Assembly: GCA_028868825.1 (NCBI GenBank)
Contig: JAGWTU010000007.1
Span: 62,001-126,000, forward strand
DNA: 64,000 nucleotides
Source: Burkholderiales bacterium
GTDB lineage: Bacteria > Pseudomonadota > Gammaproteobacteria > Burkholderiales > Burkholderiaceae_C
Direction: 5' to 3'
Shown here: piece after piece, positions 6,788-62,050 of the stretch
How positions within the stretch are numbered: the first letter of the stretch is position 1
Layout: the number at the start of each line of letters is the position of its first letter
Notes under the pieces: generated by a model
What the model saw: the letters and a program-made list of their open reading frames with translations, nothing else
Database searches by the model: none
What the model was told of the DNA's origin: nothing
Position numbers and translations under genes: made by a program

Positions 6788-8416
6788 TCAGCGCCGCAGC
6801 ACCAGCCCGCCCGCCGAGCGGTTGCTGCGCCGCACGCCGGCGATGTGGCTGGCGGGCCGGCAATAGCGGTGCGCCAGCGTCCCGGCGGCCTTGAGCAGTT
6901 CCTCGATGCCTTCGATGCGCTCGCGGTGACGCTGCCCGACCAGCGAGGCCATCTCGATCAGCTTGGCGTTGCCGGTCTCGCGGCCATGGTTGAGCAGCTT
7001 CTCCACCGCCGCCTTGGCCTGGCCGCGCAGCGCGTTGTTCATCGCGTCCTCGGCGATCTGCATCACCTCGGCGTACGAGGAGCGGATCCATTCCTGGGCA
7101 TGCGGATGGTTGCGCACGGCCGCCGCCAGCACCTCCGACGACGCCTTGTTGACGGCGAAGCGGTGCGCGACGCGGCGCACGATGGCCTCGAGTTCGTCGT
7201 CGAGGACGCCGTAGCGATCGAGCCGCGACCACAGCGAGAGGATGTTGGCGCCGGCCTCCATGTCGAAATCGGGCTGCGCGATCTCCTCGGTGAACTCGCG
7301 CGCGCGCAGCACGCCGGCGGCGGCCTGGCCTTCGCCCAGCGTCATCAGCACCTGGCCGATCTCGGCCATGCGACGCAGCCGCGTCGACTGGTTGTAGGTG
7401 TCGGCGAAGCGCTGCAGCACGTCCTGCGCCAGACCCAGGCCCTTGGTGTCCTGGGCGTCGAAGCGCAGGAAGGCCAGCAGCATCATCGACAGCACGTCGA
7501 ACAGCCGCGACTTGTTGCCCATCGCCCAGGTGCGTTCGAGCATCTGGGTGGCAACCGGCGCATCGCCGGCATAGAAGCTCAGCGTGCCGCAATGCTGCAT
7601 GCGCAGGATGCAGCCCGGGGTGATCGAGGCGGCGATGCGGTAGGTGGCGCGGGCCTCCTCGAGGTTGCCCTGCTCCATCTGCACCTTGCCCATGACGTCG
7701 TACGAATCGGCGTACTGGGGCTGGTCGCCGATCAGCGATTCGAGGGTGCGCCGCGCCTGCATCACCTCGCCGTCGGCGAGCTGGCTGCGCGCCACGCCCA
7801 GACGTGCCCAGGGCACGGCCTTGGCGGCGACGACGGCGTCGAAGAGCTTCTTGGCCTCGTCGTGACGCCTGAGGTCGAGCAGCACCTCGGCGCCGATGCG
7901 GGCGGCGTACAGCCAGTAGAGCTCTCGCTGCTCGAAGCGCTCCTGGCACAGCGTCGCTGCGCGCTCCATGTCGCCGGCCTCGATGGCATCGAAGATCGTC
8001 TTCAGCACCCGTTTGCGCTGGCGCGCTTCCTTCACGCGCTCGAACAGCGTGTTGGCCGAATAGGGCTTGATGAGATAGCTGTCCAGCGCCGCCTCGGCGG
8101 CCTCGGTGACGCGCTGGTAGGTGGCGTCGCCGGTGATCATGATGAACACGGTCGAATGCGGCAGCATGCGCTCGCGCCGCAACTCCTCGAGCAGGTCCTG
8201 GCCCGATTCCTTGCCGCCCTCGAAGTCGTATTCGCACAGCACGAGGTCATAGCGGCGGTGTTCGAGCAGATCGCGGGCGTCTATGACCCGACCCGCCGCC
8301 TTGACATGACCGAAGCCGAAATCGCGCAGATGCTGCAGTGCCACGCTGCGTGAAGTGGCGTTGCCGTCGATCACCAGCGCCGAAGCCTTGATGACTTCGC
8401 GATCAAGCTGTTGCAT
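6788..8416 (-). CDS. Receiver-TPR protein (phosphoacceptor Asp replaced by Glu)
   Basis: 542 residues: an N-terminal CheY-like receiver (about 10-130) and a long TPR-rich helical region (about 135-480). Aligning with CheY, the phosphoacceptor aspartate position is E62 (YDLVLCEYD), while the switch threonine T95 and conserved lysine K117 (LIKPYS) remain. A glutamate here can mimic the phosphorylated state, so the receiver may be locked on. Its start overlaps the end of the paralogous upstream gene by 14 bp, and the two are surely co-transcribed. The output is probably protein-protein contact through the TPRs. The cellular pathway is unknown. Confidence 0.85.
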   Translation of the reverse strand: MQQLDREVIKASALVIDGNATSRSVALQHLRDFGFGHVKAAGRVIDARDLLEHRRYDLVLCEYDFEGGKESGQDLLEELRRERMLPHSTVFIMITGDATYQRVTEAAEAALDSYLIKPYSANTLFERVKEARQRKRVLKTIFDAIEAGDMERAATLCQERFEQRELYWLYAARIGAEVLLDLRRHDEAKKLFDAVVAAKAVPWARLGVARSQLADGEVMQARRTLESLIGDQPQYADSYDVMGKVQMEQGNLEEARATYRIAASITPGCILRMQHCGTLSFYAGDAPVATQMLERTWAMGNKSRLFDVLSMMLLAFLRFDAQDTKGLGLAQDVLQRFADTYNQSTRLRRMAEIGQVLMTLGEGQAAAGVLRAREFTEEIAQPDFDMEAGANILSLWSRLDRYGVLDDELEAIVRRVAHRFAVNKASSEVLAAAVRNHPHAQEWIRSSYAEVMQIAEDAMNNALRGQAKAAVEKLLNHGRETGNAKLIEMASLVGQRHRERIEGIEELLKAAGTLAHRYCRPASHIAGVRRSNRSAGGLVLRR

Positions 8417-10058
8417 TGAGCGTTTCCTGGACTTGGCGGCTGCGCATCAGCAACCCGCCCGGCGAGCGGCCGGTGCGCTGGATGCCGGCGATATGCCCGT
8501 CGATTCTGCACGAGCGCTGGATCTGTGTCGCCGCCCTGGCGACCAGTTTTTCGGCGTCGACGACATGCTCGCGGTGGCGGCTCGCGATCAGGCCGGCCAT
8601 CTCGAGCAGCCGGCCGTTGAGCGTGCGCTGGCCGATCGCCAGCAGATGTTCGGCGGCGGCACCGGCCTCACCCTGCATCGCGCGCGCCATCGCCTGCTCG
8701 GCGAGCGCCGAGATGCGCGCCTGGCAGCGCCGGATCATGCCCAGCGCCGGTTCGGTGCCGCGGGCGGCGCCGACCAGCGATTCGGTGATCGCGCGTGAGA
8801 TGCAGAAGCGCATGCCGATGCGCTCGGCCAGCTGCTCGTATTCGTCGTTCGGGCACAGTTCGGCCGGCAGCCGCGACCACAGCGCCAGCAGCATGTTCGC
8901 CGATTCGAGGTCGAAATCGTCGTCGCCGGCCTGGCTGCCGATCTCGCGCAGGCTATCGAGCGCGGCCGCGCCCTGATCGTCGGCCAGTCGCGCCAGCACT
9001 TCGGCGCAGCGTGTCAGCCGCGCCAGGCGGCGCGAATCCGGGAAGCGGCGCTGGAACTCGCGCAGCTGTTCGTGCATTGCCGCGGCACCCGGGCGGTCAC
9101 CCTCGTCGTGACGCACCAGCGCCAGCAGCAGCAGCGTCAGCGCATCGAACAGCTTGGACTGCACGCCCAGGCCGAGGCAATGCTCGAAAAGCTGGCGCGC
9201 CTCGCGCGTGCGGCCCTGGTAGAAGGCCAGTGCCCCGGCATGCTGGGTGCGCAGCAGGCAGCCCGGCGTGAGTTCGGCGGCCTTGCGGTACGAGTCCAGC
9301 GCCGCCTCGAAGTCGCCCTGGTCGATGAGCAGGCGGCCGACGAGGTCGTGGGCATCGGCCGATTCGGGTTCCTCGACGAGCACCGCGTGCACGGTCTCGC
9401 GTGCACCGGCGCTGTTGCCGGCGCCCATCTGCGCGCGCGCGATGCCCAGCCGCGCCCAGATCGCCTTGGTCGCCTCGGTCAGCTTCTCGAACACGCGCTG
9501 CGCCTCGACGAAGCGCCGCATGTCCAGCAGCAGTTCGGCGGCGACGCGGCCGCAATAGACGGCGTAGGGCTGGCGTTCGATGAAGCGCTTGTAGGCGCGG
9601 GCGAAGGCCGTCTGATGGTTGCCGGTGTCCAGCGCCAGCATGATGTCGGCGAGCTCGCGCTTGCGCCGGCGGGCCTCCGTCAGCCGCTGCATCAGCAGCG
9701 CGCCGGTGTAGGGACGCAGCAGCATGCCGTCCAGCGCCGATTCCGCCGCTTCGACCACCTGGTGGTAGCTGGCCCGGTTGGCGATCATCAGGAACACCGT
9801 GCGGTGCGGCAGCAGGTTCTCGCGCCGCAGCTCGTCGAGCAGATCCTGGCCCGCGTGCTCGCTGCCCTCGAATTCGCGGTTGCACAGCACGATGTCGTAG
9901 CGGTCGCGCTCGAGCATCATGCGCGCGTCGCGCACCCGCGCCGCGGTGTCGATGTGGCCGACGCCGGCGTCGCGCAGCTGGCCGAGCGCGACGCTGCGCA
10001 TCATCGGATTGCCGTCGACGAGCAGCGCGCGGGCGCGGTGGATGTCGCGGTCGATCAT
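8403..10058 (-). CDS. Receiver-TPR protein, paralogue with a degenerate receiver
   Basis: 551 residues with the same layout as the gene at 6788-8416. Blocks are shared along the length (for example GQDLL-ELRRE, CGTL/AGALAFY, SPGGLL/SAGGL), indicating an old tandem duplication. In this copy all three key receiver residues are altered: phosphoacceptor Asp to N60 (VLCNREF), switch Thr to A93, and Lys to R115 (LLRPYT). It should be unable to take a phosphate by the normal route. AAGGGA lies 6 nt before the ATG. It follows dnaJ by about 100 bp on the same strand and may be read from the heat-shock region or its own promoter. Confidence 0.85.
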   Translation of the reverse strand: MIDRDIHRARALLVDGNPMMRSVALGQLRDAGVGHIDTAARVRDARMMLERDRYDIVLCNREFEGSEHAGQDLLDELRRENLLPHRTVFLMIANRASYHQVVEAAESALDGMLLRPYTGALLMQRLTEARRRKRELADIMLALDTGNHQTAFARAYKRFIERQPYAVYCGRVAAELLLDMRRFVEAQRVFEKLTEATKAIWARLGIARAQMGAGNSAGARETVHAVLVEEPESADAHDLVGRLLIDQGDFEAALDSYRKAAELTPGCLLRTQHAGALAFYQGRTREARQLFEHCLGLGVQSKLFDALTLLLLALVRHDEGDRPGAAAMHEQLREFQRRFPDSRRLARLTRCAEVLARLADDQGAAALDSLREIGSQAGDDDFDLESANMLLALWSRLPAELCPNDEYEQLAERIGMRFCISRAITESLVGAARGTEPALGMIRRCQARISALAEQAMARAMQGEAGAAAEHLLAIGQRTLNGRLLEMAGLIASRHREHVVDAEKLVARAATQIQRSCRIDGHIAGIQRTGRSPGGLLMRSRQVQETLNATA

Positions 10059-52578: not shown

Positions 52579-53724
52579 CTAGCGATACCGGCGCAGGTAG
52601 TTCCACTCGAATCCGCGCTTGGCCCAGTGCAGCAGCCGCGACGCCGGCAGCAGCCCGTTGTGCCGCGGCGTGCGCCAGATCAGCGTGCCGCGGTCGAGCG
52701 CGTCGACGATGCACACCAGCTCGATCTTGAACGTCGCCTGCGCAGGCCTGCCGGCGAGGTCGCCGAGCGCATTGGCCGCGGCGGCCACCGCCTGCAGATC
52801 GGCCATGTGGGCCTGCTTGGGCATCCAGTCGGGGCCCGGAAAACTCCCCGCGTCGCCGACGACGTAGACGCGTTGGCGCCCCGGCACGCGGCCATGCGCG
52901 TCGGCCTGCAGCAGGCCGCCCGGCGATCGCGGCAGGCTCGTCGCATCGAACCAGGCGTTGCCCGTCATGCCGGGCATGAACAGGATCAGGTCGGCGGCGA
53001 ATTCGCCGCCCGCGGTCACCACCTTGCCGGCTTCGAAGCGCTCGATCTTGTGGCCCAGATGCGTGCGCACGCCGCGCCGCGCCATCTCGGCCAGCAGGTG
53101 CTGCACCGCCTGGGGCCCGAGGCGGTTGCCGGGCTCGGCCGAGGGGTTGAAGAAACAGAGCTCGAAGCGCTCGCGCCGCCCTTCGCGGCGCAGCTGCGCG
53201 TCGATGCCGAACAGGAACTCGAACATCGGCCCGCCGCGCACCGCCGTCGGCTCGTTCGGGTTGCCGGCGAAGCCGACGGCGATGGTGCCGCCCTGCATCT
53301 CGCGCAGGCGCTCGCGGATGCGCTCGGCCGCCGCGATGCCCTCGCAGGGCGTGATCGCGTGTTCGATGCCGGGCAGCTTCTTGATGAAGCGCCCGCCGGT
53401 GGCGATGACGAGCGCGTCGTTGACGACGTCGGCTCCGCTCGTGTGCACGACGCGGTCGTCGTCGCTCAGTCCGGTGACCTCGGCGGCGACGAAACGCACG
53501 CGCTGGCGGCGCAGGAAGTTCTGCAGCGGCACGATCAGGTCCTCGCGCGTGCGCAGCCCGCTCGGGATCCAGATGATGCCGGGCAGGTAATGCAGTTCGG
53601 CGCGCGGTGCGACCAGCGTGATCTCGGCCCGGGCGTCGCGCCGGCGCAGTTCGCGGATCGTCGACAGCGCGGCGAATCCGGCACCGAGCACGCAGATGCG
53701 CGCGCTCCCGGACGGGGCGCTCAC
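52579..53724 (-). CDS. SQR-like NAD(P)/FAD-dependent oxidoreductase
   Basis: 381 residues. Two Rossmann-type segments are present: CVLGAGFAALSTIRELRR (FAD) and a second region around GGTIAVGFAGNPNEPTAV. VYVVGDAGSFPGPDWMPKQAHMADLQA is the C-terminal FAD motif of sulfide:quinone oxidoreductase and NDH-2 proteins. Cysteines are at ICVLG, ITPCEGI, ELCFFNP and LVCIVD. The second catalytic cysteine of SQR (before GPxxE) is replaced: the segment reads PTAVRGGPMFE. So it is either an SQR variant or a different quinone reductase. GTG start overlaps the cydX stop (GTGA), tying it to cytochrome bd. Confidence 0.8.
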   Translation of the reverse strand: MSAPSGSARICVLGAGFAALSTIRELRRRDARAEITLVAPRAELHYLPGIIWIPSGLRTREDLIVPLQNFLRRQRVRFVAAEVTGLSDDDRVVHTSGADVVNDALVIATGGRFIKKLPGIEHAITPCEGIAAAERIRERLREMQGGTIAVGFAGNPNEPTAVRGGPMFEFLFGIDAQLRREGRRERFELCFFNPSAEPGNRLGPQAVQHLLAEMARRGVRTHLGHKIERFEAGKVVTAGGEFAADLILFMPGMTGNAWFDATSLPRSPGGLLQADAHGRVPGRQRVYVVGDAGSFPGPDWMPKQAHMADLQAVAAAANALGDLAGRPAQATFKIELVCIVDALDRGTLIWRTPRHNGLLPASRLLHWAKRGFEWNYLRRYR

Positions 53725-53846
53725 GCTGGCCCCCCGTCGTCGCCCGCGGCCTGGCTGCGGCCGGCCTCGTTCTCGCCCCACATCGCGTTCAGGATCGCCA
53801 GCAGGACGGCGAAGCCGACGCCCAGGACCCAGGCGAAATACCACAT
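53721..53846 (-). CDS. cydX: Cytochrome bd small subunit CydX
   Basis: 41 residues: MWYFAWVLGVGFAVLLAILN then AMWGENEAG. The MWYFAWxLG start, a single transmembrane helix and the conserved Glu (E25) are diagnostic of CydX, which stabilises the haem site of CydAB. AAGGAGAAT lies 7 nt before the ATG. The stop overlaps the GTG of the SQR-like gene. It is easily missed by automatic annotation because of its size. Confidence 0.95.
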   Translation of the reverse strand: MWYFAWVLGVGFAVLLAILNAMWGENEAGRSQAAGDDGGPA

Positions 53847-54017
53847 GCGCAATTCTCCTTCAGGTGTGCTTGTCGTCGCCGACGATGATGCGCGTGTCGC
53901 TCGCGTAGCGGTGCGGCGGGATCTCGAGATTCATCGATGCCGGCATGCAGGGTGAGGCAGGATCCGGTCCATGATCGCATTGCCGGGGGGTGGGGTGCGA
54001 AGTCGGTGGCCCGCACA

Positions 54018-55160
54018 TCAGTAGGCGGTGTGTTCGTTGGCGCGGATCTGCGCCAGCGTGACCTTGCCGCGCATCACGCGGTAGGCCCACGACGTGTAGA
54101 AGACGATCAGGGGCATGAAGATCAGCGTGGCCCAGAACATCAGCGCCAGTGTCAGGTGGCTCGAGACGCTGTCCCAGACGGTGAGGCTGGCGTCGGGCAT
54201 GCTCGACGACGGCATCACGAACGGGAACATCGAAGCGCCGGCGGTGCCGATGACGCCGGTGATGGCCAGCGCCGAGGCGACGAAAGCGGTCAGCGTGTGG
54301 CGCCGCGCCACCAGTGCCGCCGCCGCCAGCGCGCCGCCGACGCCGAGCGCCGGCAGCAGCCACAGCAGCGGCGCGCGGCCGTAGTTGGCGAACCAGGCGT
54401 CGGCGCTGCGCACGACGGTCTTGGCGAGCGGATCGGCGGCGGCGCCGGGGTCCATCGCCGAGGTGATCGCGTAGCCCTGGATCGATCCCAGCCGCAGCCA
54501 GATGCCGGCGGCGACGAAGGCCACCGCCATCACCAGCGCGGCGCCGACCGCGCCGCGCATGGCGCGCTGCTGGATCTGTCCCTCGGTGCGGTGCGCGAGG
54601 TAGGTTCCGCCGTGCATCGTGATCATCGCGCTGCTGACGACGCCGGCGAGCAGGCCGAACGGGTTCAGCAGTTGCCAGAAGCTGCCGGTGTAGGTCGACA
54701 CCAGGCGATCGTCGAAACCGAAGGGCACGCCCTGCAGCAGGTTGCCGAAGGCGACGCCGAAGATCAGCGGCGGCACGGCGCCGCCGATGAACAGGCCCCA
54801 GTCCCAGGTGCTGCGCCAGGCGGGGTGGTGGATCTTGCTGCGGTAGTCGAAACCCACGGGCCTGAAGAACAGCGCCCAGAGCACGGCCAGCATGGCCCAG
54901 TAGAAGCCGCTGAAGGCGGTGGCGTAGACGAGCGGCCAGGCGGCGAAGATCGCGCCGCCGCCGGTGATGAACCAGACCTGGTTGCCGTCCCAATGCGGGC
55001 CGACGGTGTTGATGACGACGCGGCGCTCGTCGTCGCCGCGGCCGACGAAGGGCAGCAGCGTGCCCACGCCCATGTCGTGGCCGTCCATGACGGCGAATCC
55101 CACCAGCAGCACGCCGACGAGCAGCCACCAGATCAGCTTGAGGGTCGAATAGTCGAGCAT
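54018..55160 (-). CDS. cydB: Cytochrome bd quinol oxidase subunit II CydB
   Basis: 380 residues with about eight transmembrane helices. Blocks include LKLIWWLLVGVLLVGFAVMDGHDMGVG at the N-terminus and VGPHWDGNQVWFITGGGAIFAAWP. It is the structural partner of CydA in the inner membrane. It lies 9 bp after cydA. The 170 bp between its end and cydX hold no clear gene. Confidence 0.98.
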   Translation of the reverse strand: MLDYSTLKLIWWLLVGVLLVGFAVMDGHDMGVGTLLPFVGRGDDERRVVINTVGPHWDGNQVWFITGGGAIFAAWPLVYATAFSGFYWAMLAVLWALFFRPVGFDYRSKIHHPAWRSTWDWGLFIGGAVPPLIFGVAFGNLLQGVPFGFDDRLVSTYTGSFWQLLNPFGLLAGVVSSAMITMHGGTYLAHRTEGQIQQRAMRGAVGAALVMAVAFVAAGIWLRLGSIQGYAITSAMDPGAAADPLAKTVVRSADAWFANYGRAPLLWLLPALGVGGALAAAALVARRHTLTAFVASALAITGVIGTAGASMFPFVMPSSSMPDASLTVWDSVSSHLTLALMFWATLIFMPLIVFYTSWAYRVMRGKVTLAQIRANEHTAY

Positions 55161-55169
55161 CGTGCGTCC

Positions 55170-56741
55170 TCAGGCCGGCGTCGAGGCGGCGCCATGCGCG
55201 GCCTCCTGGTCGTAGCGCCCGGTGCCCAGGCTGCCGGGCCCCTGGCGCGCGAACTTGATCATCAGGAACATCTCGACGACGAGCAGCAGCGTGTAGAAGC
55301 CGACGAAGCCGGCGAGCGAGCCGTACAGATTGGACGTCGCCAGCGTCGACACGCTCAGATTCGTCGGCAGCACGCCGTAGATGGTCCAGGGCTGGCGGCC
55401 GTACTCGGCCACGACCCAGCCGAGTTCGGCGGCAATCCAGGGAGCCGGCAGCATCCACAGCGCCCAGCGCAGCAGCCAGCGCTGGCGCCCGCAGCGGCCG
55501 CGCAGCGTGGACCAGAACGCGAGCGCGAACAGCGCCAGCATCGCGAAGCCCAGCGCGACCATGATGCGGAAGCTCCAGAACATCGGCGCGACGCGCGGGA
55601 TCGTGTCGGCGGCGGCGCGGTCGATCATCGCGGGCGTCGCCTGGCGCACGTCGGCGACGTATTTCTCGAGCAGCAGGCCGAAGCCGAGGTCGTCCTTGCT
55701 GCGCTCGAATTCGGCGCGCGCCTGCGCGTCGCCGCGGTCGCGGCGCAGCGCCTGCAGCGCGGTGACGGCGCCGATGCCGCGCACGATGCGCTCGCGGTTG
55801 CGGGCCTCGATCTCGACGATGCCGGGGATCTGCCGCGTCAGCGAGCGCGTGCCGATCAGCCCCATCAGCCAGGGCACGCTGACCTCCCAGTCGTTGCGCT
55901 GGTGTGCCGAGTCGATGCCGGCGATGAGCTTGAGCGAGGCCGGTGCCGGCTCGGTGTGCCACATCGCCTCGAGCGCGGCCATCTTGGTCTGCTGTGCCTC
56001 GCCCACGGTGTAGCCCGATTCGTCGCCGAGCACGATCACGCTGAGCGCCGAGGCCAGGCCGAAGGCCGCCGCGACGCGAAAGCTGCGGCGGGCGAATTCG
56101 ACGTTGCGCCCGCGCAGCAGATACCCGCTCGAGATCGCGAGCATGAACATCGCGCCGGTGACATAGCCGGCCGAGACGGTGTGGACGAACTTGGCCTGGG
56201 CATCGGGGTTGAAGACGACGGCCCAGAAGTCGGTCAGCTCCATGCGCATCGTCTGCTCGTTGAACGCGGCCCCGACCGGGTTCTGCATCCAGCCGTTGGC
56301 GATCAGGATCCACAGCGCCGACAGGTTGGTGCCCACCGCCATCAGCAGCGTCACCAGCAGGTGCCTGGGGCGCGAGAGGCGGTCCCAGCCGAAGAAGAAC
56401 AGGCCGATGAAGGTGCTCTCGAGGAAAAAGGCCATCAGCCCCTCGATCGCCAGCGGCGCGCCGAAGATGTCGCCGACGTAATGCGAGTAATAGGCCCAAT
56501 TGGTGCCGAACTGGAATTCGAGCGTGATGCCGGTCGTCACGCCGAGGGCGAAATTGATGCCGAAGAGCTTGCCCCAGTAGCGCGTCATGTCCTTCCAGAC
56601 GACCTGCCCGGTCATCACGTAGACGCTCTCCATGATCACGAGCAGCCAGACCATGCCCAGCGTCAGGGGCACGAACAGGAAGTGGTACAGCGCGGTGGTG
56701 GCGAACTGCAGCCGCGAGAGATCGACGAGCGACGGCGCCAT
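55170..56741 (-). CDS. cydA: Cytochrome bd quinol oxidase subunit I CydA
   Basis: 523 residues, as in E. coli CydA with the long quinol loop. H20 in ALYHFLFVPLTLG is a haem ligand. GRQPWTIYGVLPTNLS is the quinol-oxidase motif. It oxidises quinol and reduces O2 to water without pumping protons; bd oxidases resist inhibition by sulfide, cyanide and NO. The ATG overlaps the cydP stop (TGATG), so it depends on cydP translation. Confidence 0.98.
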   Translation of the reverse strand: MAPSLVDLSRLQFATTALYHFLFVPLTLGMVWLLVIMESVYVMTGQVVWKDMTRYWGKLFGINFALGVTTGITLEFQFGTNWAYYSHYVGDIFGAPLAIEGLMAFFLESTFIGLFFFGWDRLSRPRHLLVTLLMAVGTNLSALWILIANGWMQNPVGAAFNEQTMRMELTDFWAVVFNPDAQAKFVHTVSAGYVTGAMFMLAISSGYLLRGRNVEFARRSFRVAAAFGLASALSVIVLGDESGYTVGEAQQTKMAALEAMWHTEPAPASLKLIAGIDSAHQRNDWEVSVPWLMGLIGTRSLTRQIPGIVEIEARNRERIVRGIGAVTALQALRRDRGDAQARAEFERSKDDLGFGLLLEKYVADVRQATPAMIDRAAADTIPRVAPMFWSFRIMVALGFAMLALFALAFWSTLRGRCGRQRWLLRWALWMLPAPWIAAELGWVVAEYGRQPWTIYGVLPTNLSVSTLATSNLYGSLAGFVGFYTLLLVVEMFLMIKFARQGPGSLGTGRYDQEAAHGAASTPA

Positions 56742-56926
56742 CACGGGCGCACTCCCGTCGCCGCGGCGGGCGCGGGCTGCGCGAGGAGATGGGCCGCCGC
56801 GAGGTCGGCATCGACGTCGACGCCATCGGCGCGGACGAAGACCAGCCACAGCGCCGCGAGCAAGGCCAGCTTGATCGTGACGATGAGCGCGAGGTGGCGT
56901 GCGAGAGGGTGGGCGTGACGGGTCAT
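56741..56926 (-). CDS. cydP: Cytochrome oxidase small subunit CydP
   Basis: 61 residues with one transmembrane helix (LALIVTIKLALLAALWLVFV). This matches the CydP family found at the head of cydAB operons. AGGAAGG lies just before the ATG. Only about 12 bp separate the ATG from the sigma-54-like -12 element, so a transcript from that promoter would start almost at the ATG. Confidence 0.85.
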   Translation of the reverse strand: MTRHAHPLARHLALIVTIKLALLAALWLVFVRADGVDVDADLAAAHLLAQPAPAAATGVRP

Positions 56927-56938
56927 GGCCTTCCTGTA

Positions 56939-56953
56939 TCAAGACGCGTGCCA
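56939..56953 (-). promoter_or_regulatory. Sigma-54 (-24/-12) promoter of the cydPABX unit
   Basis: Minus strand TGGCACGCGTCTTGA: -24 element perfect (TGGCACG), -12 TTGA in place of TTGC. It is nearly identical to the ccoG promoter at 61837-61851. Four TGGCAG/CTGCC boxes lie 62-101 bp upstream, the right range for an enhancer-binding protein. Confidence 0.7.
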
Positions 56954-56974
56954 GCATCGGTGCTGGTGGTCAAG

Positions 56975-56988
56975 ATGATGGGAATCAA
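56975..56988 (-). promoter_or_regulatory. FNR/Anr-type box upstream of cydP
   Basis: On the minus strand TTGATTCCCATCAT matches the palindromic consensus TTGAT-N4-ATCAA at 9 of 10 positions. It lies about 50 bp before cydP. Low-oxygen activation of bd oxidase by FNR-type regulators is well known, so two inputs (oxygen and a sigma-54 activator) seem to meet here. Confidence 0.65.
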
Positions 56989-57014
56989 GGACTTGCGCTC
57001 GACCCGGTGCGCGA

Positions 57015-57054
57015 TGGCAGGTCCGCCGGCTGCCCGAACTGCCATCTCTGGCAG
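57015..57054. promoter_or_regulatory. Enhancer-like cluster of TGGCAG boxes (cyd region)
   Basis: TGGCAG at 57015-57020, CTGCC at 57030-57034, and the perfect palindrome CTGCCA-TCTC-TGGCAG at 57039-57054. The same hexamers cluster upstream of the two other sigma-54 promoters in this region. Confidence 0.6.
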
Positions 57055-57175
57055 GCGTCGGTGTGCCACGGCCGAGGTGCGCCCGGCGCTGGTCGGCGCT
57101 GCCTTAACGCAGATCAACGACAAGCGGCTGCTGCGCGCGCTCAATGCAGATGTCGCCTTTTTTGGGGAGCCAAAG

Positions 57176-57328
57176 ATGCATGCACTGAACGATCTCTTCA
57201 CGTCGGACGTCGGCCTCATGACCGTCGTGGGCATCGCCTTCATGCTCGGCATGGGCGTGTTCTTCGTGCGCTACTTCATCAAGCACATGCATGAAGACGA
57301 GGCCCGGGCGCGGGCCGCGAAGCGCTGA
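57176..57328 (+). CDS. DUF3149 small membrane protein
   Basis: 50 residues: MHALNDLFTSDVGLMTVVGI, then a transmembrane helix and a charged tail (IKHMHEDEARARAAKR). The NDLF-x-(S/T)-D-x-GLM start and single helix match the DUF3149 family of betaproteobacteria. Its function is unknown. It is divergent from the cyd unit and lies downstream of the TGGCAG cluster; a weak FNR half-site (TTAACGCAGATCAA) is at 57104-57117. Confidence 0.8.
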   Translation: MHALNDLFTSDVGLMTVVGIAFMLGMGVFFVRYFIKHMHEDEARARAAKR

Positions 57329-57387
57329 TGGGCTGAAGCGTATGTGCGCGCATGCGCCGGAGGCGTCGTGCGCTCCGGCCGCGCCTC

Positions 57388-58164
57388 TCAATGAACGCGG
57401 GTGTCGAGGCGGCAGCGCAAAGTCACGAATGCGGCTTCACCGATGCCGTCGCGCACGTGGATGTTGGACCTTCGCTGCTCGGCGACGGTGCTGACGAACT
57501 CGAAATCGCGCGTCGCCGGCGGGCAGTCGTGTGACACGTAGATCCGCGTCGCCGGCGGCAGGCTCAGCACGCGGTTGATGGACCGGAAGAGCCGGCGCGG
57601 ATCGCCCCCTGCAGGGTCGCAGCAGGCCGTGCCGCGGTCGGGCATGCAAAGCAGGTCGCCGACGAAAGCCGCCATGTCGGCGCCACCACCCGGCCCGTCG
57701 CTGACGACATAGGTGACGCCGTCGCTCGCGTGGCCGGGCGTGTGCAGGACCCGCACTTCGAGGCCGCCGAGGCCGAAGACCTCGCCATCGGCGTAGTGGT
57801 GGCATGCACCGCAGCCGGCGCCGACAGCCGTGCCGCCGTCGGCGTCGCCCCAGGTCTGCACGGCGGTCGCGTCCGCTGCACCCGCACCCAGCCGGCCGCC
57901 CAGCTGCCGCAGCAGCTCGGCGGCCGCCGCGAGCTGATCGGCCCGCATGCGGGTCTGAAGCAGCCAGGCGAGTTCGGCGCCGAGCTGGCGAACGCGCGCG
58001 ACGATGCGTGCGGCCAGCTCCTGCGCTGCCGGTGTCGTCGACACCTCCCTGGCGCAGTCGATGAGCGCGCAGGTGCGCGTGACCCGGTCGAGGACGAGAT
58101 AGCCGATGGCCCCGGTGCTCTCGGTCCACCAGGGTTCGATCTGCATGCGGCTGCGACTCGGCAT
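57388..58164 (-). CDS. Persulfide-dioxygenase-like metallo-beta-lactamase-fold protein with disrupted metal motif
   Basis: 258 residues aligning along its length with bacterial PDO/Blh (ETHE1-like) proteins: [45 protein letters not shown] and NIHVRDG. The first metal motif, THxHADH in the family, reads TRMRADQ (71-77), so two or three histidine ligands are gone, while H145, D170 and H212 remain. ETHE1 uses the first of these histidines to hold its iron. Glutathione-persulfide oxidation is thus doubtful. A CGACHH insert (118-123) might offer other ligands. GGGAG precedes the ATG. A sigma-54 promoter and the FisR-like gene lie directly upstream, divergent. Confidence 0.8.
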
Positions 58165-58194
58165 CTTGTTCTCCCGCCCTACCGGACTTGCCTT

Positions 58195-58209
58195 TCAAGA
58201 GTCGTGCCA
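58195..58209 (-). promoter_or_regulatory. Sigma-54 (-24/-12) promoter of the persulfide-dioxygenase-like gene
   Basis: Minus strand TGGCACGACTCTTGA: perfect -24 element and a TTGA -12, 31 bp before the ATG, leaving room for a 20-nt leader with a ribosome-binding site. Confidence 0.75.
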
Positions 58210-58318
58210 TCGCGCGCCGTGGCGGCGCCGGGGTCGGCCGGACCTGCGCCGTGCGAGGACGCAGGCGTCTGCACCCCGGTGCGCGGACCGCGCCGGGACG
58301 CCGCGCCGTGGCCTGCAT

Positions 58319-58357
58319 TGGCAGCCCATCTGGCAGAAGTCTGCCGCGCGCTGGCAG
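58319..58357. promoter_or_regulatory. Enhancer-like cluster of TGGCAG boxes (fisR region)
   Basis: TGGCAG at 58319-58324, 58331-58336 and 58352-58357, plus CTGCC at 58341-58345 giving the inverted pair GGCAG-AAGT-CTGCC. The cluster lies 110-150 bp upstream of the sigma-54 promoter and 47 bp upstream of the FisR-like ATG. Confidence 0.6.
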
Positions 58358-58403
58358 TCTTGGCCGACGCGCGCACAATCGAGCCCACCGAGGGCCCACC
58401 GCC

Positions 58404-59807
<1,404 letters not shown>

Positions 59808-59823
59808 GCGCCGCCGCCGCGCT

Positions 59824-60270
59824 TCAGGCCAGTCTTGCGCCGAGCGCGTCGAAGACTTCGATGTCGACGGGTAGCGCGGCGCGCACGCTCTGGGTCACGG
59901 TGCAATAGGCCTCGAAGCCGCCGAGCACGCGGTCCAGGTGTTCGAGTCGCGCCGCCGGCACGCCCAGCGTCAGGCGCGCGTGCAGCGCGAGCACGCGCAC
60001 GCGGCCCTCGGCGTTGCGACCGACATCGGCCGTCACCTTGCAGGCTATCGGCTCGGGCTGCTGCTTGAACTTGCGCAGCGCGAACAGCAGCGACGCGCTC
60101 AGGCAGTTGCCCACGGCCGATGCCAGCAACTGCACCGGCGACGGTCCGAGTCCGGTGCCCAGCGGCGGCGGCTCGTCGGCGAGCAGATGCGGCGTGGCGC
60201 CGCCGAAGTCGAGGTCGAACTGGTAATCCTGCACCTGGGTCAAATGCACGGTCGGGGTCGATTCGCTCAT
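59824..60270 (-). CDS. OsmC/Ohr-family peroxidase-like protein
   Basis: 148 residues. The two redox cysteines of the family are present: C56 in LLASAVGNCLSASLL and C123 in AYCTVTQSVR. OsmC/Ohr proteins reduce organic hydroperoxides with thiols, and some members are reported to act on persulfides. It lies 40 bp after ccoG on the same strand and so should be read from the same sigma-54 promoter. Confidence 0.88.
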   Translation of the reverse strand: MSESTPTVHLTQVQDYQFDLDFGGATPHLLADEPPPLGTGLGPSPVQLLASAVGNCLSASLLFALRKFKQQPEPIACKVTADVGRNAEGRVRVLALHARLTLGVPAARLEHLDRVLGGFEAYCTVTQSVRAALPVDIEVFDALGARLA

Positions 60271-60310
60271 GGCAAAGCTCCTGGTTTGTGTCGATGGCCG
60301 TACGGGATCC

Positions 60311-61762
60311 TCAACGAGGCACGATGAAGGTCGACTTCTCGCGCACGATGCGGTCGACCTTGCCGGCCGCGCCCTCGCTGACCGTGAACTCGATCGCGTG
60401 CACGCCCGGCTGCGCCTGCGCTGCCGTCTGCGGCGGCACCTGCAGCGACACCGAGAGCCAGCGCGCCTCGGTCGGCGCGACGTCGACGGCCATCGGCTCG
60501 CGCAGCCGCATCCCCGCCAGCCCGTCGGCGGCCACGACATAGTGCTGTGGCTGCTCGGTGGCATTCATGATCTGCAGCCGGTAGACGTTCTCGACCCAGC
60601 CGTCATCGACCTGGCGCGCCAGCGTGCCGCGGTCGCGCACGATGTCGACCTTGAACGGCGAGCGCGTCGCGATGCTGGCGGCGAGCGCGCCGCAGATGAC
60701 GAACAGGATGGCCGTGTAGACGAGCACGCGCGGGCGCAGCACGCGGCGTAGCCGCTCGCCGCGGCCGTAGCCCTGGGCGAGGCCGTTCTGCGTGTCGTAG
60801 CGCACCAGCCCGGTGGCGTAGTTCATCTTCTTCATCACGTCGTCGCAGACATCGATGCAGGCGGCGCAGCCGATGCACTCGTATTGCAGGCCCTTGCGGA
60901 TGTCGATGCCGGTGGGGCAGACCTGCACGCACAGGTTGCAGTCGACGCAGGCGCCGAGGCCGAGCTGGGCGGGGTCGGCCTTCTTCGAGCGCGAGCCGCG
61001 TGGCTCGCCGCGTGCCGCGTCGTAGGTGATGATCAGCGTGTCCTTGTCGAGCATCGCGCTCTGGAAGCGGGCGTAGGGGCAGACGTACTTGCAGATCTGC
61101 TCGCGCATGTAGCCGGCATTGCCGTAGGTCGCGAAGCCGTAGAAGCCGACCCAGAACGTCTCCCAGGGCCCGAGACCGAGGCTCAACGCCGACGCGCCCA
61201 GGCTGCGCACCGGCGTGAAATAGCCGACGAAGGTGAAGCCGGTCCACAGCCCCATCACGATCCACGCGCCATGCTTGGCGATCTTGCGCCAGGCCTTGTC
61301 CGCGCTCCAGGGTCCGGCGTCGCGCTTCATGCGCGCGCCGCGGTCGCCCTCGATCTTGCGCTCGACCCACATGAACAACTCCGTGTAGACGGTCTGCGGG
61401 CAGGCATAGCCGCACCACAGCCGCCCGGCCACGGTCGTGAAGAGGAAGAGCGAGTAGGCCGAGATGATCAGCAGTGCCGTCAGGTAGATGAAGTCCTGCG
61501 GATAGAGCACGAGGCCGAAGATGTAGAAGCGCCGCGCGCCGAGGTCGAACAGCACCGCCTGGCGTCCGTTCCAGACCAGCCACGGCACGCCATAGAAGAC
61601 GAGCTGGGTCAGCCAGACGAAGACCCAGCGCCAGGCGACGAAGCGGCCGCTGACCGATCGCGGGTAGATCTTCGCTTGCGCCTGGTAGAGCGAGACGATC
61701 TGTTCGCCGGGTTCGGCCCTCGCCACGTCGGCAAGGGGCGGGTCGTTCGATCGAGTATTCAT
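60311..61762 (-). CDS. ccoG: Cytochrome c oxidase accessory protein CcoG (RdxA/FixG-like)
   Basis: 483 residues. It has several N-terminal transmembrane helices with WCGYACPQTVYTELFMWVE, a pair of 4Fe-4S motifs (CVDCNLCVQVCP and CIGCAACIDVC), another cysteine motif (CKYVCPYARFQ), a further helix and a C-terminal Ig-like domain. CcoG reduces copper for assembly of cbb3-type oxidase. No ccoNOP genes lie here, so it is separated from the usual operon and instead stands with osmC under a sigma-54 promoter. Confidence 0.92.
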   Translation of the reverse strand: MNTRSNDPPLADVARAEPGEQIVSLYQAQAKIYPRSVSGRFVAWRWVFVWLTQLVFYGVPWLVWNGRQAVLFDLGARRFYIFGLVLYPQDFIYLTALLIISAYSLFLFTTVAGRLWCGYACPQTVYTELFMWVERKIEGDRGARMKRDAGPWSADKAWRKIAKHGAWIVMGLWTGFTFVGYFTPVRSLGASALSLGLGPWETFWVGFYGFATYGNAGYMREQICKYVCPYARFQSAMLDKDTLIITYDAARGEPRGSRSKKADPAQLGLGACVDCNLCVQVCPTGIDIRKGLQYECIGCAACIDVCDDVMKKMNYATGLVRYDTQNGLAQGYGRGERLRRVLRPRVLVYTAILFVICGALAASIATRSPFKVDIVRDRGTLARQVDDGWVENVYRLQIMNATEQPQHYVVAADGLAGMRLREPMAVDVAPTEARWLSVSLQVPPQTAAQAQPGVHAIEFTVSEGAAGKVDRIVREKSTFIVPR

Positions 61763-61836
61763 GGTTGGCGGCGGGCGAGGCTTGCGGGAGCCGATGCGGC
61801 TCGGGACCGCTCGTGGCGGGTGTTGCCGATGGCATT

Positions 61837-61851
61837 GCAAGACGCCTGCCA
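61837..61851 (-). promoter_or_regulatory. Sigma-54 (-24/-12) promoter of ccoG-osmC
   Basis: Minus strand TGGCAGGCGTCTTGC: GG-N10-GC spacing exact, with consensus TTGC at -12 and one change in the -24 element. It lies 75 bp upstream of the ccoG ATG. Confidence 0.8.
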
Positions 61852-61920
61852 GCCTCGCCCCGGCGCTTGCCCGCACGGGGTGGCCCGTCGCGGCGCGGCG
61901 GCCGCGGGCGTCGATTCGGA

Positions 61921-61964
61921 CTGCCAGTCGTGGCAGTCTGGCAGTTCAGCGATTGAAATGGCAG
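61921..61964. promoter_or_regulatory. Enhancer-like cluster of TGGCAG boxes (ccoG region)
   Basis: The perfect palindrome CTGCCA-GTCG-TGGCAG (61921-61936) is followed by TGGCAG at 61939-61944 and 61959-61964. The cluster begins 70 bp upstream of the ccoG sigma-54 promoter, a typical enhancer distance. Confidence 0.65.
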
Positions 61965-62050
61965 ATTCTCTGTCCCGCGCAGCGGGCGCCGTTGGCCATC
62001 CCCCTTCGAGGCGATGCGCCGGCGCCGCCACCGTTGCTACGCTGCGGCCC

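Follow-up and report, generated by a model that had tools for sequence, protein, structure and literature searches.

Sigma-54-dependent promoters carry GG at -24 and GC at -12 at a fixed spacing, and an arrangement of upstream activator sites, an IHF-bent segment, and the -24/-12 element is known for activators of the NtrC, NifA, and NorR type. Sulfide poisons heme-copper oxidases and induces the bd oxidase in several bacteria; to our knowledge, the link between sulfide sensing and oxidase choice is mostly open. FisR of Cupriavidus pinatubonensis JMP134, a sigma-54 activator, was reportedly described by Li et al. in 2017, and its known targets are said to be sulfide-oxidizing genes. Its C53 and C64 form a tetrasulfide, as given in the part of the source available (PMC8614764). 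FisR of Acinetobacter baumannii, likewise a sigma-54 activator, lacks the regulatory-domain cysteines and activates pdo1-sqr-tauE under sulfide; the same report, in its accessible portion, cites the induction by sulfide of a sulfide-resistant bd oxidase in Escherichia coli and Mycobacterium tuberculosis, and that portion names no FisR or sigma-54 regulator for it (PMC7315123). Here we describe a locus in a 64,000-nucleotide stretch (the window; positions 62,001 to 126,000 of contig JAGWTU010000007.1) from the draft genome of a Burkholderiales bacterium (GCA_028868825.1; 5,837,552 bases in 125 contigs, 98.5% complete), where a FisR-type activator gene is found together with three -24/-12 promoters, those of cydP, an MBL-fold gene, and ccoG. 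The arrangement is probably explained by a FisR regulon that reaches beyond sulfide oxidation into sulfide-proof respiration.

The three promoters match the pattern TGGCA-N-G-NN-TCTTG exactly on the minus strand, with TGGCA and TTG in register in each: TGGCACGCGTCTTGAT for cydP (56938 to 56953, pattern 56953 to 56940), TGGCACGACTCTTGAA for the MBL gene (58194 to 58209, pattern 58209 to 58196), and TGGCAGGCGTCTTGCA for ccoG (61836 to 61851, pattern 61851 to 61838). They had been proposed in a preliminary description of this DNA and prove to be unique, as the pattern occurs at only three places in the whole 5.84-Mb assembly, all within this gene cluster, and its reversed control occurs at none. 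Hexamer searches located a cluster of CTGCCA/TGGCAG half-sites upstream of each promoter, with three copies for cydP (57015 to 57054), three in a single orientation for the MBL gene (58319 to 58357), and four for ccoG (61921 to 61964), placed 61, 109, and 69 bp above the respective -24 elements. The four TGGCAG copies per promoter claimed earlier are thus reached by the exact hexamer at ccoG only, and at all three only by the pentamer TGGCA/TGCCA within 200 bp. The palindrome CTGCCA-N4-TGGCAG, which the same description had placed at two of the three promoters, does lie in the cydP and ccoG clusters (57039 to 57054 and 61921 to 61936), and these are its only exact copies in the host assembly; with one mismatch it occurs at 31 places, and its reversed control at 61. 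A looser promoter pattern is found at 11 places in the host genome. The two inside the gene cluster have three hexamers each within 200 bp; the other nine have none within 250 bp upstream and were for that reason rejected as further targets.

The activator (467 residues; 58404 to 59807, plus strand) contains PAS_4, sigma-54 AAA+ (Sigma54_activat), and Fis-type HTH_8 domains, and the GAFTGA motif is seen in its alignment. The preliminary description had correctly put a sigma-54 activator in the middle of the gene cluster and had left its type open; by its domains, motif, and place in the tree, it is of the FisR type, and the NCBIfam equivalogs tried (NifA, NtrC, NorR, and others) all scored far below their cutoffs. 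Its sensor has the motif C80-x10-C91-x6-C98, in which the C80-C91 spacing equals the 11 residues between C53 and C64 of JMP134 FisR; C71, which we take to be the third FisR cysteine, would complete the same C-x10-C-x6-C spacing. All three cysteines are invariant in 21 aligned regulator proteins, as are H85, H114, H116, and H117. In a survey of 299 genomes of the family, in which the activator was counted as present at an E value of ≤1e-100, 55 genomes matched at 58 places. The regulator set consists of 58 loci (L051 to L070, L101 to L137, and the window), which are related to each other and are not independent trials. Of 57 regulators extracted, 56 have the C-x10-C-x6-C motif and one (L067) was a faulty extraction; more distant relatives carry the motif too. 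In a tree that leaves out L067 and the truncated L122, the window protein falls in an 18-row clade with proteins of Cupriavidus metallidurans CH34 and Burkholderia latens (support 99/98; JMP134 FisR is not among the rows), and 44 other rows form a second group (97/80), 38 of them with CydA, Rieske, or CcoG genes nearby; the outside branches are very long, and the root is not to be read. The CH34 regulator is 70% identical to the window activator; paired PDO and SQR genes and a TauE gene adjoin it, with a promoter and four to five hexamers on each side. Three genomes (G058, G213, and G252) carry two regulators of this family each. The half-sites of the MBL gene also lie 47 to 85 bp upstream of the start codon of the activator gene itself, and autoregulation is possible.

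Half-site clusters, defined as at least three CTGCCA/TGGCAG in 70 bp, number 50 and are spread over 38 of the 58 regulator loci. Promoters were scored against a sigma-54 consensus with hand-set weights and called at ≥0.85, with a stricter level at ≥0.90. At the lower level, 40 of the 50 clusters (33 of the 58 loci) have a promoter at a distance of 20 to 190 bp, versus 9.6% of 3,000 random positions in the same loci; at the stricter level, the figures are 34 of 50 versus 2.2%. The distance from cluster edge to -24 has a median of 75 bp (range, 28 to 144). In the 40 clusters with a promoter, 31 of 110 neighboring half-site pairs face inward, spaced by N3 in 12 and by N4 in 7 (19 of the 31 together), and 60 of the 110 are direct repeats; the exact N4 palindrome was accordingly rejected as the conserved unit. 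In half of 150 CTGCCA copies, an A comes directly before the hexamer. Across the relatives compared, the preferred unit is CTGCCA-N3/N4-TGGCAG with extra half-sites. Could the sites be an accident of chance or composition? TGGCAG is not enriched over the window (30 copies versus 41.6 expected), although 10 of the 30 fall in the three short clusters, and for 20 other, mostly G+C-rich hexamers, the number of loci with a cluster (among the 58) is higher than for CTGCCA; the 120 hexamers made by permuting its letters average 3.4 clusters, versus 50 for CTGCCA itself and 53 for CCTGCA. Because raw hexamer clustering is weak as proof, the coupling to promoters was taken as the evidence instead. That coupling, together with the genome-wide uniqueness of the strict patterns, the recurrence of the sites in relatives carrying the same genes, and an IHF-like site at a fixed place, already contradicts an artefact, to which we give almost no credence. 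A composite search for CTGCCA-N75-105-promoter matched in 73 of the 299 genomes, many of them regulator-less and the matches apparently intragenic, and was not used for counts. The same cluster scan found no such clusters in the divergent relatives L146 to L149 and L231 (41 to 47% identity).

The IHF-like site had been missed in the preliminary description and is an addition to it. At cydP, AATCAAGGACTTG (56983 to 56995, plus strand) is centered 36 bp above the -24 element and agrees at 9 of 9 positions with the IHF consensus used for scoring, WATCAANNNNTTR. Matches of 8 or 9 of 9 positions within 75 bp above -24 occur at 19 of the 40 promoters, versus 3.1% of shuffles, and 16 of these 19 are centered 33 to 36 bp above -24. 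A possible Fnr site close to the conserved TTGAT was weighed by eye, and the IHF consensus is the better fit.

Products of the genes that stand first below these promoters include CydA or CydP, CcoG, a PDO-type MBL protein, and a YgaP-like membrane protein. A Rieske gene is first in L058, L059, L121, L131, L133, and L137, a divergent bd subunit I (presumably cio-type) in L051, SQR in L055, and a subthreshold DsrE match in L128. Near the regulator, within the retrieved stretches of 64 loci (the 58 plus L141 to L145 and CH34), Rieske genes are found in 28, CydA in 27, CcoG in 18, PDO in 16, the usual SQR in 12, an SQR-III-like gene in 12, and TauE in 6. The Rieske genes under FisR-type promoters are possibly alternative Rieske subunits; those outside the six promoter loci often adjoin ccoG. 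In L116, the gene at 7591 to 8967, which follows a cluster and a -24/-12 match, encodes an uncharacterized membrane protein that ends in a cytochrome c domain.

The target genes also go with the regulator gene. CydA of at least 77% identity occurs in 30 of the 299 genomes, 24 of the 55 that bear the regulator versus 6 of the 244 others (Fisher P = 4.5e-15). A promoter with at least one hexamer in the 500 bp above cydA is present at 22 of 24 regulator-linked loci, the linked cydA genes without a site being those of L126 and L129, versus 6 of 31 regulator-less genomes by this loose test (Fisher P = 7e-8; L242, where cydA starts at a contig end, was left out). In none of these 31 genomes does the best-scoring site read TGGCAYG...TTG; the like-for-like control is small, because only 4 of the 31 carry the same CydA type and most have a distant CydA (55 to 63%). 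Regulator absence here means no match at an E value of ≤1e-100, and a second look at 1e-75 covered only eight genomes. Since the sites are genome-unique, recur in relatives, and are mostly absent above cydA where the regulator is missing, they support the earlier proposal of one regulator shared by the bd oxidase, a sulfur-type protein, and ccoG. FisR might instead serve only the MBL/PDO-type promoter, with another enhancer-binding protein of similar operator acting at cydP and ccoG. Other sigma-54 activators are present in the host genome, which has 20 matches to the activator at an E value of ≤0.001 (itself included), but all three sites have sequence and layout in common, the genome contains no further copy of the strict patterns, and sites and CydA type co-occur with the FisR-type regulator; a second activator at these promoters is thus very improbable.

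In the mechanism that we favor, the FisR-type protein would bind the ACTGCCA/TGGCAGT half-site repeats about 60 to 110 bp above the three promoters, and IHF would bend the DNA between half-sites and promoter, at least at cydP. Sulfide would raise cellular sulfane sulfur, with which C80, C91, and C98 of the PAS domain may react, thereby releasing the AAA+ ATPase to remodel RpoN polymerase. The predicted outcome is that cydP-cydA-cydB-cydX and the SQR-like gene are switched on, providing a bd oxidase insensitive to sulfide, along with the dioxygenase homologue encoded by the MBL gene (57388 to 58164, minus strand, divergent from the activator) and ccoG (rdxA/fixG; 60311 to 61762, minus strand), possibly in one transcript with an OsmC-like gene 40 bp behind it (59824 to 60270, minus strand). 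The operator is also present in relatives, in front of pdo-sqr and tauE as well as of Rieske and divergent bd-oxidase genes. This layout resembles the promoters of NtrC, NifA, and NorR and differs from them in its own operator sequence and gene set. Unlike JMP134 FisR, the window activator has cydPAB and ccoG as apparent targets. This is a known kind of regulator with an apparently new respiratory reach, and its conserved FisR-type site set is real. Among the matches listed in the open-access literature, which does not include the original FisR paper and was available in part, there was none for FisR control of cydAB, ccoG, or Rieske genes or for a CTGCCA operator. If the proposed mechanism is true, one sensor whose operator can be read from the sequence before bd-type oxidases, a Rieske gene, and ccoG would make the link between sulfide and oxidase directly testable, and FisR control of respiration would be predictable from DNA across Burkholderiales.

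Several observations weigh against this interpretation. The -12 element reads TTGA rather than TTGC at the cydP and MBL promoters, GC being found only at ccoG. With the thresholds as set, no cluster is seen in 20 of the 58 loci, and none with a promoter in 25; a promoter is absent at 10 of the 50 clusters, and 21 of the 40 promoters have no IHF-like match at 8 of 9 positions, the window MBL and ccoG promoters among those without a good site (best, 5 of 9). Seven of eight unlinked cydA copies in regulator-bearing genomes have no site, the exception, L258, having the full arrangement. Site-like stretches are also present at cydP in the regulator-less genomes G081 and G185 (L239 and L241); these loci belong to one genus and have three and one hexamers, respectively, with a near-consensus promoter before cydP. 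L239 is one of the six that pass the loose test, L241 is just under the score limit, and both sites look decayed. In A. baumannii, cydAB rises with sulfide, but the available part of the report gives FisR dependence for pdo-sqr-tauE and claims no FisR control of cydAB (PMC7315123).

The remaining points concern sulfur oxidation, in which the locus again departs from that of JMP134. The persulfide dioxygenase-like gene noted earlier at the middle promoter does encode a homologue, still behind its operator and with an intact frame of 258 codons, but it is degenerate: the metal motif HxHxDH reads RMRADQ in its alignment. HxHADH is retained in 14 of 14 homologues at 40 to 49% identity; the L144 fragment stops short of the motif, and the more distant MBL proteins of L128 and L143 also lack it. 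A second PDO-like protein with HVHADH is encoded on another contig. A search of the draft genome with the CH34 SQR found no usual SQR (best match, 27% identity, E = 1.6e-8). Because of the missing SQR and the degenerate homologue, the sulfur-oxidizing arm of the FisR regulon may have been lost or replaced in this organism. The same two features would suit another explanation, in which operators and activator are as described but the signal differs: the sensor, a PAS domain rich in Cys and His, would respond to redox state, a metal, NO, or cyanide, and the regulon would be a general response to blocked heme-copper oxidases. Most targets are indeed respiratory (bd oxidases, ccoG, Rieske), and the invariant histidines stand beside the cysteines of the sensor. 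However, the window activator groups in the tree with its C. metallidurans relative adjoining pdo-sqr and tauE, PDO and the usual SQR accompany the regulator in 16 and 12 of the 64 loci, and sulfide or sulfane sulfur is the reported signal for the FisR proteins of Cupriavidus and Acinetobacter; we regard a different signal as unlikely, though worth keeping in mind.

A bolder version of the sulfide-responsive FisR model, which we put forward only tentatively and would not yet bet on, is that a persulfide-sensing FisR rewires the respiratory chain directly through ACTGCCA-N3/4-TGGCAGT, that FisR has lost its role in sulfide oxidation here and now serves as a respiratory switch, and that a nearly leaderless cydP transcript is the main one; under sulfide, CcoG and an alternative Rieske protein may then be brought in together with bd-type oxidases. 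The start of cydP bears on this version. The cydP ATG follows the -12 element by 13 nt (56926 to 56953); with +1 placed 12 nt below the -12 element, the predicted transcript would start 1 nt before the ATG, and the Shine-Dalgarno-like AGGAAGG in the window would fall upstream of it. Among 24 regulator-bearing loci with a promoter, the cydP ATG lies 1 to 3 nt past the predicted start in 17 and the start codon 15 to 19 nt past it in 6 (L106, L108, L110, L114, L117, and L124); in L128, the cydP frame is broken and the start is not clear. Other in-frame ATGs are found near the start in 4 of the 17 (L056, L118, L132, and L135). The six longer-leader loci fall, together with L125 and L127 (1 nt), in one subgroup of the second tree group that has weak support. 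A nearly leaderless sigma-54 cydP transcript is thus predicted for most relatives examined and, if confirmed, cydP would lend itself well to testing whether sigma-54 transcripts can be translated in the absence of a Shine-Dalgarno sequence. The start codon is ATG in all 17 short-leader loci and in 5 of the 6 longer-leader loci (GTG in L124); in Sinorhizobium meliloti, the mapped leaderless mRNAs all start with AUG, as stated in the accessible part of that study (PMC3616915).

The cyd genes follow on the minus strand as cydP (56741 to 56926), cydA (subunit I of cytochrome bd; 55170 to 56741), and cydB (subunit II; 54018 to 55160), all three matched by their models. L061 and L067 carry the row as cydP-cydA-cydB-Rieske-cydX-ybgE, with an SQR-like gene further on. 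The window retains just a 23-residue piece of this Rieske gene (53863 to 53931, minus strand), resembling the C terminus of the Rieske protein whose gene is whole at the same place in relatives such as these two loci. It is followed by a cydX-like small open reading frame (MWYFAWVLGVG...; 53721 to 53846, minus strand), 82% identical to its L067 counterpart. The last gene of the putative operon (52579 to 53742, minus strand; start approximate) encodes an SQR-like FAD oxidoreductase that is type III-like and scores far below the NCBIfam cutoff.

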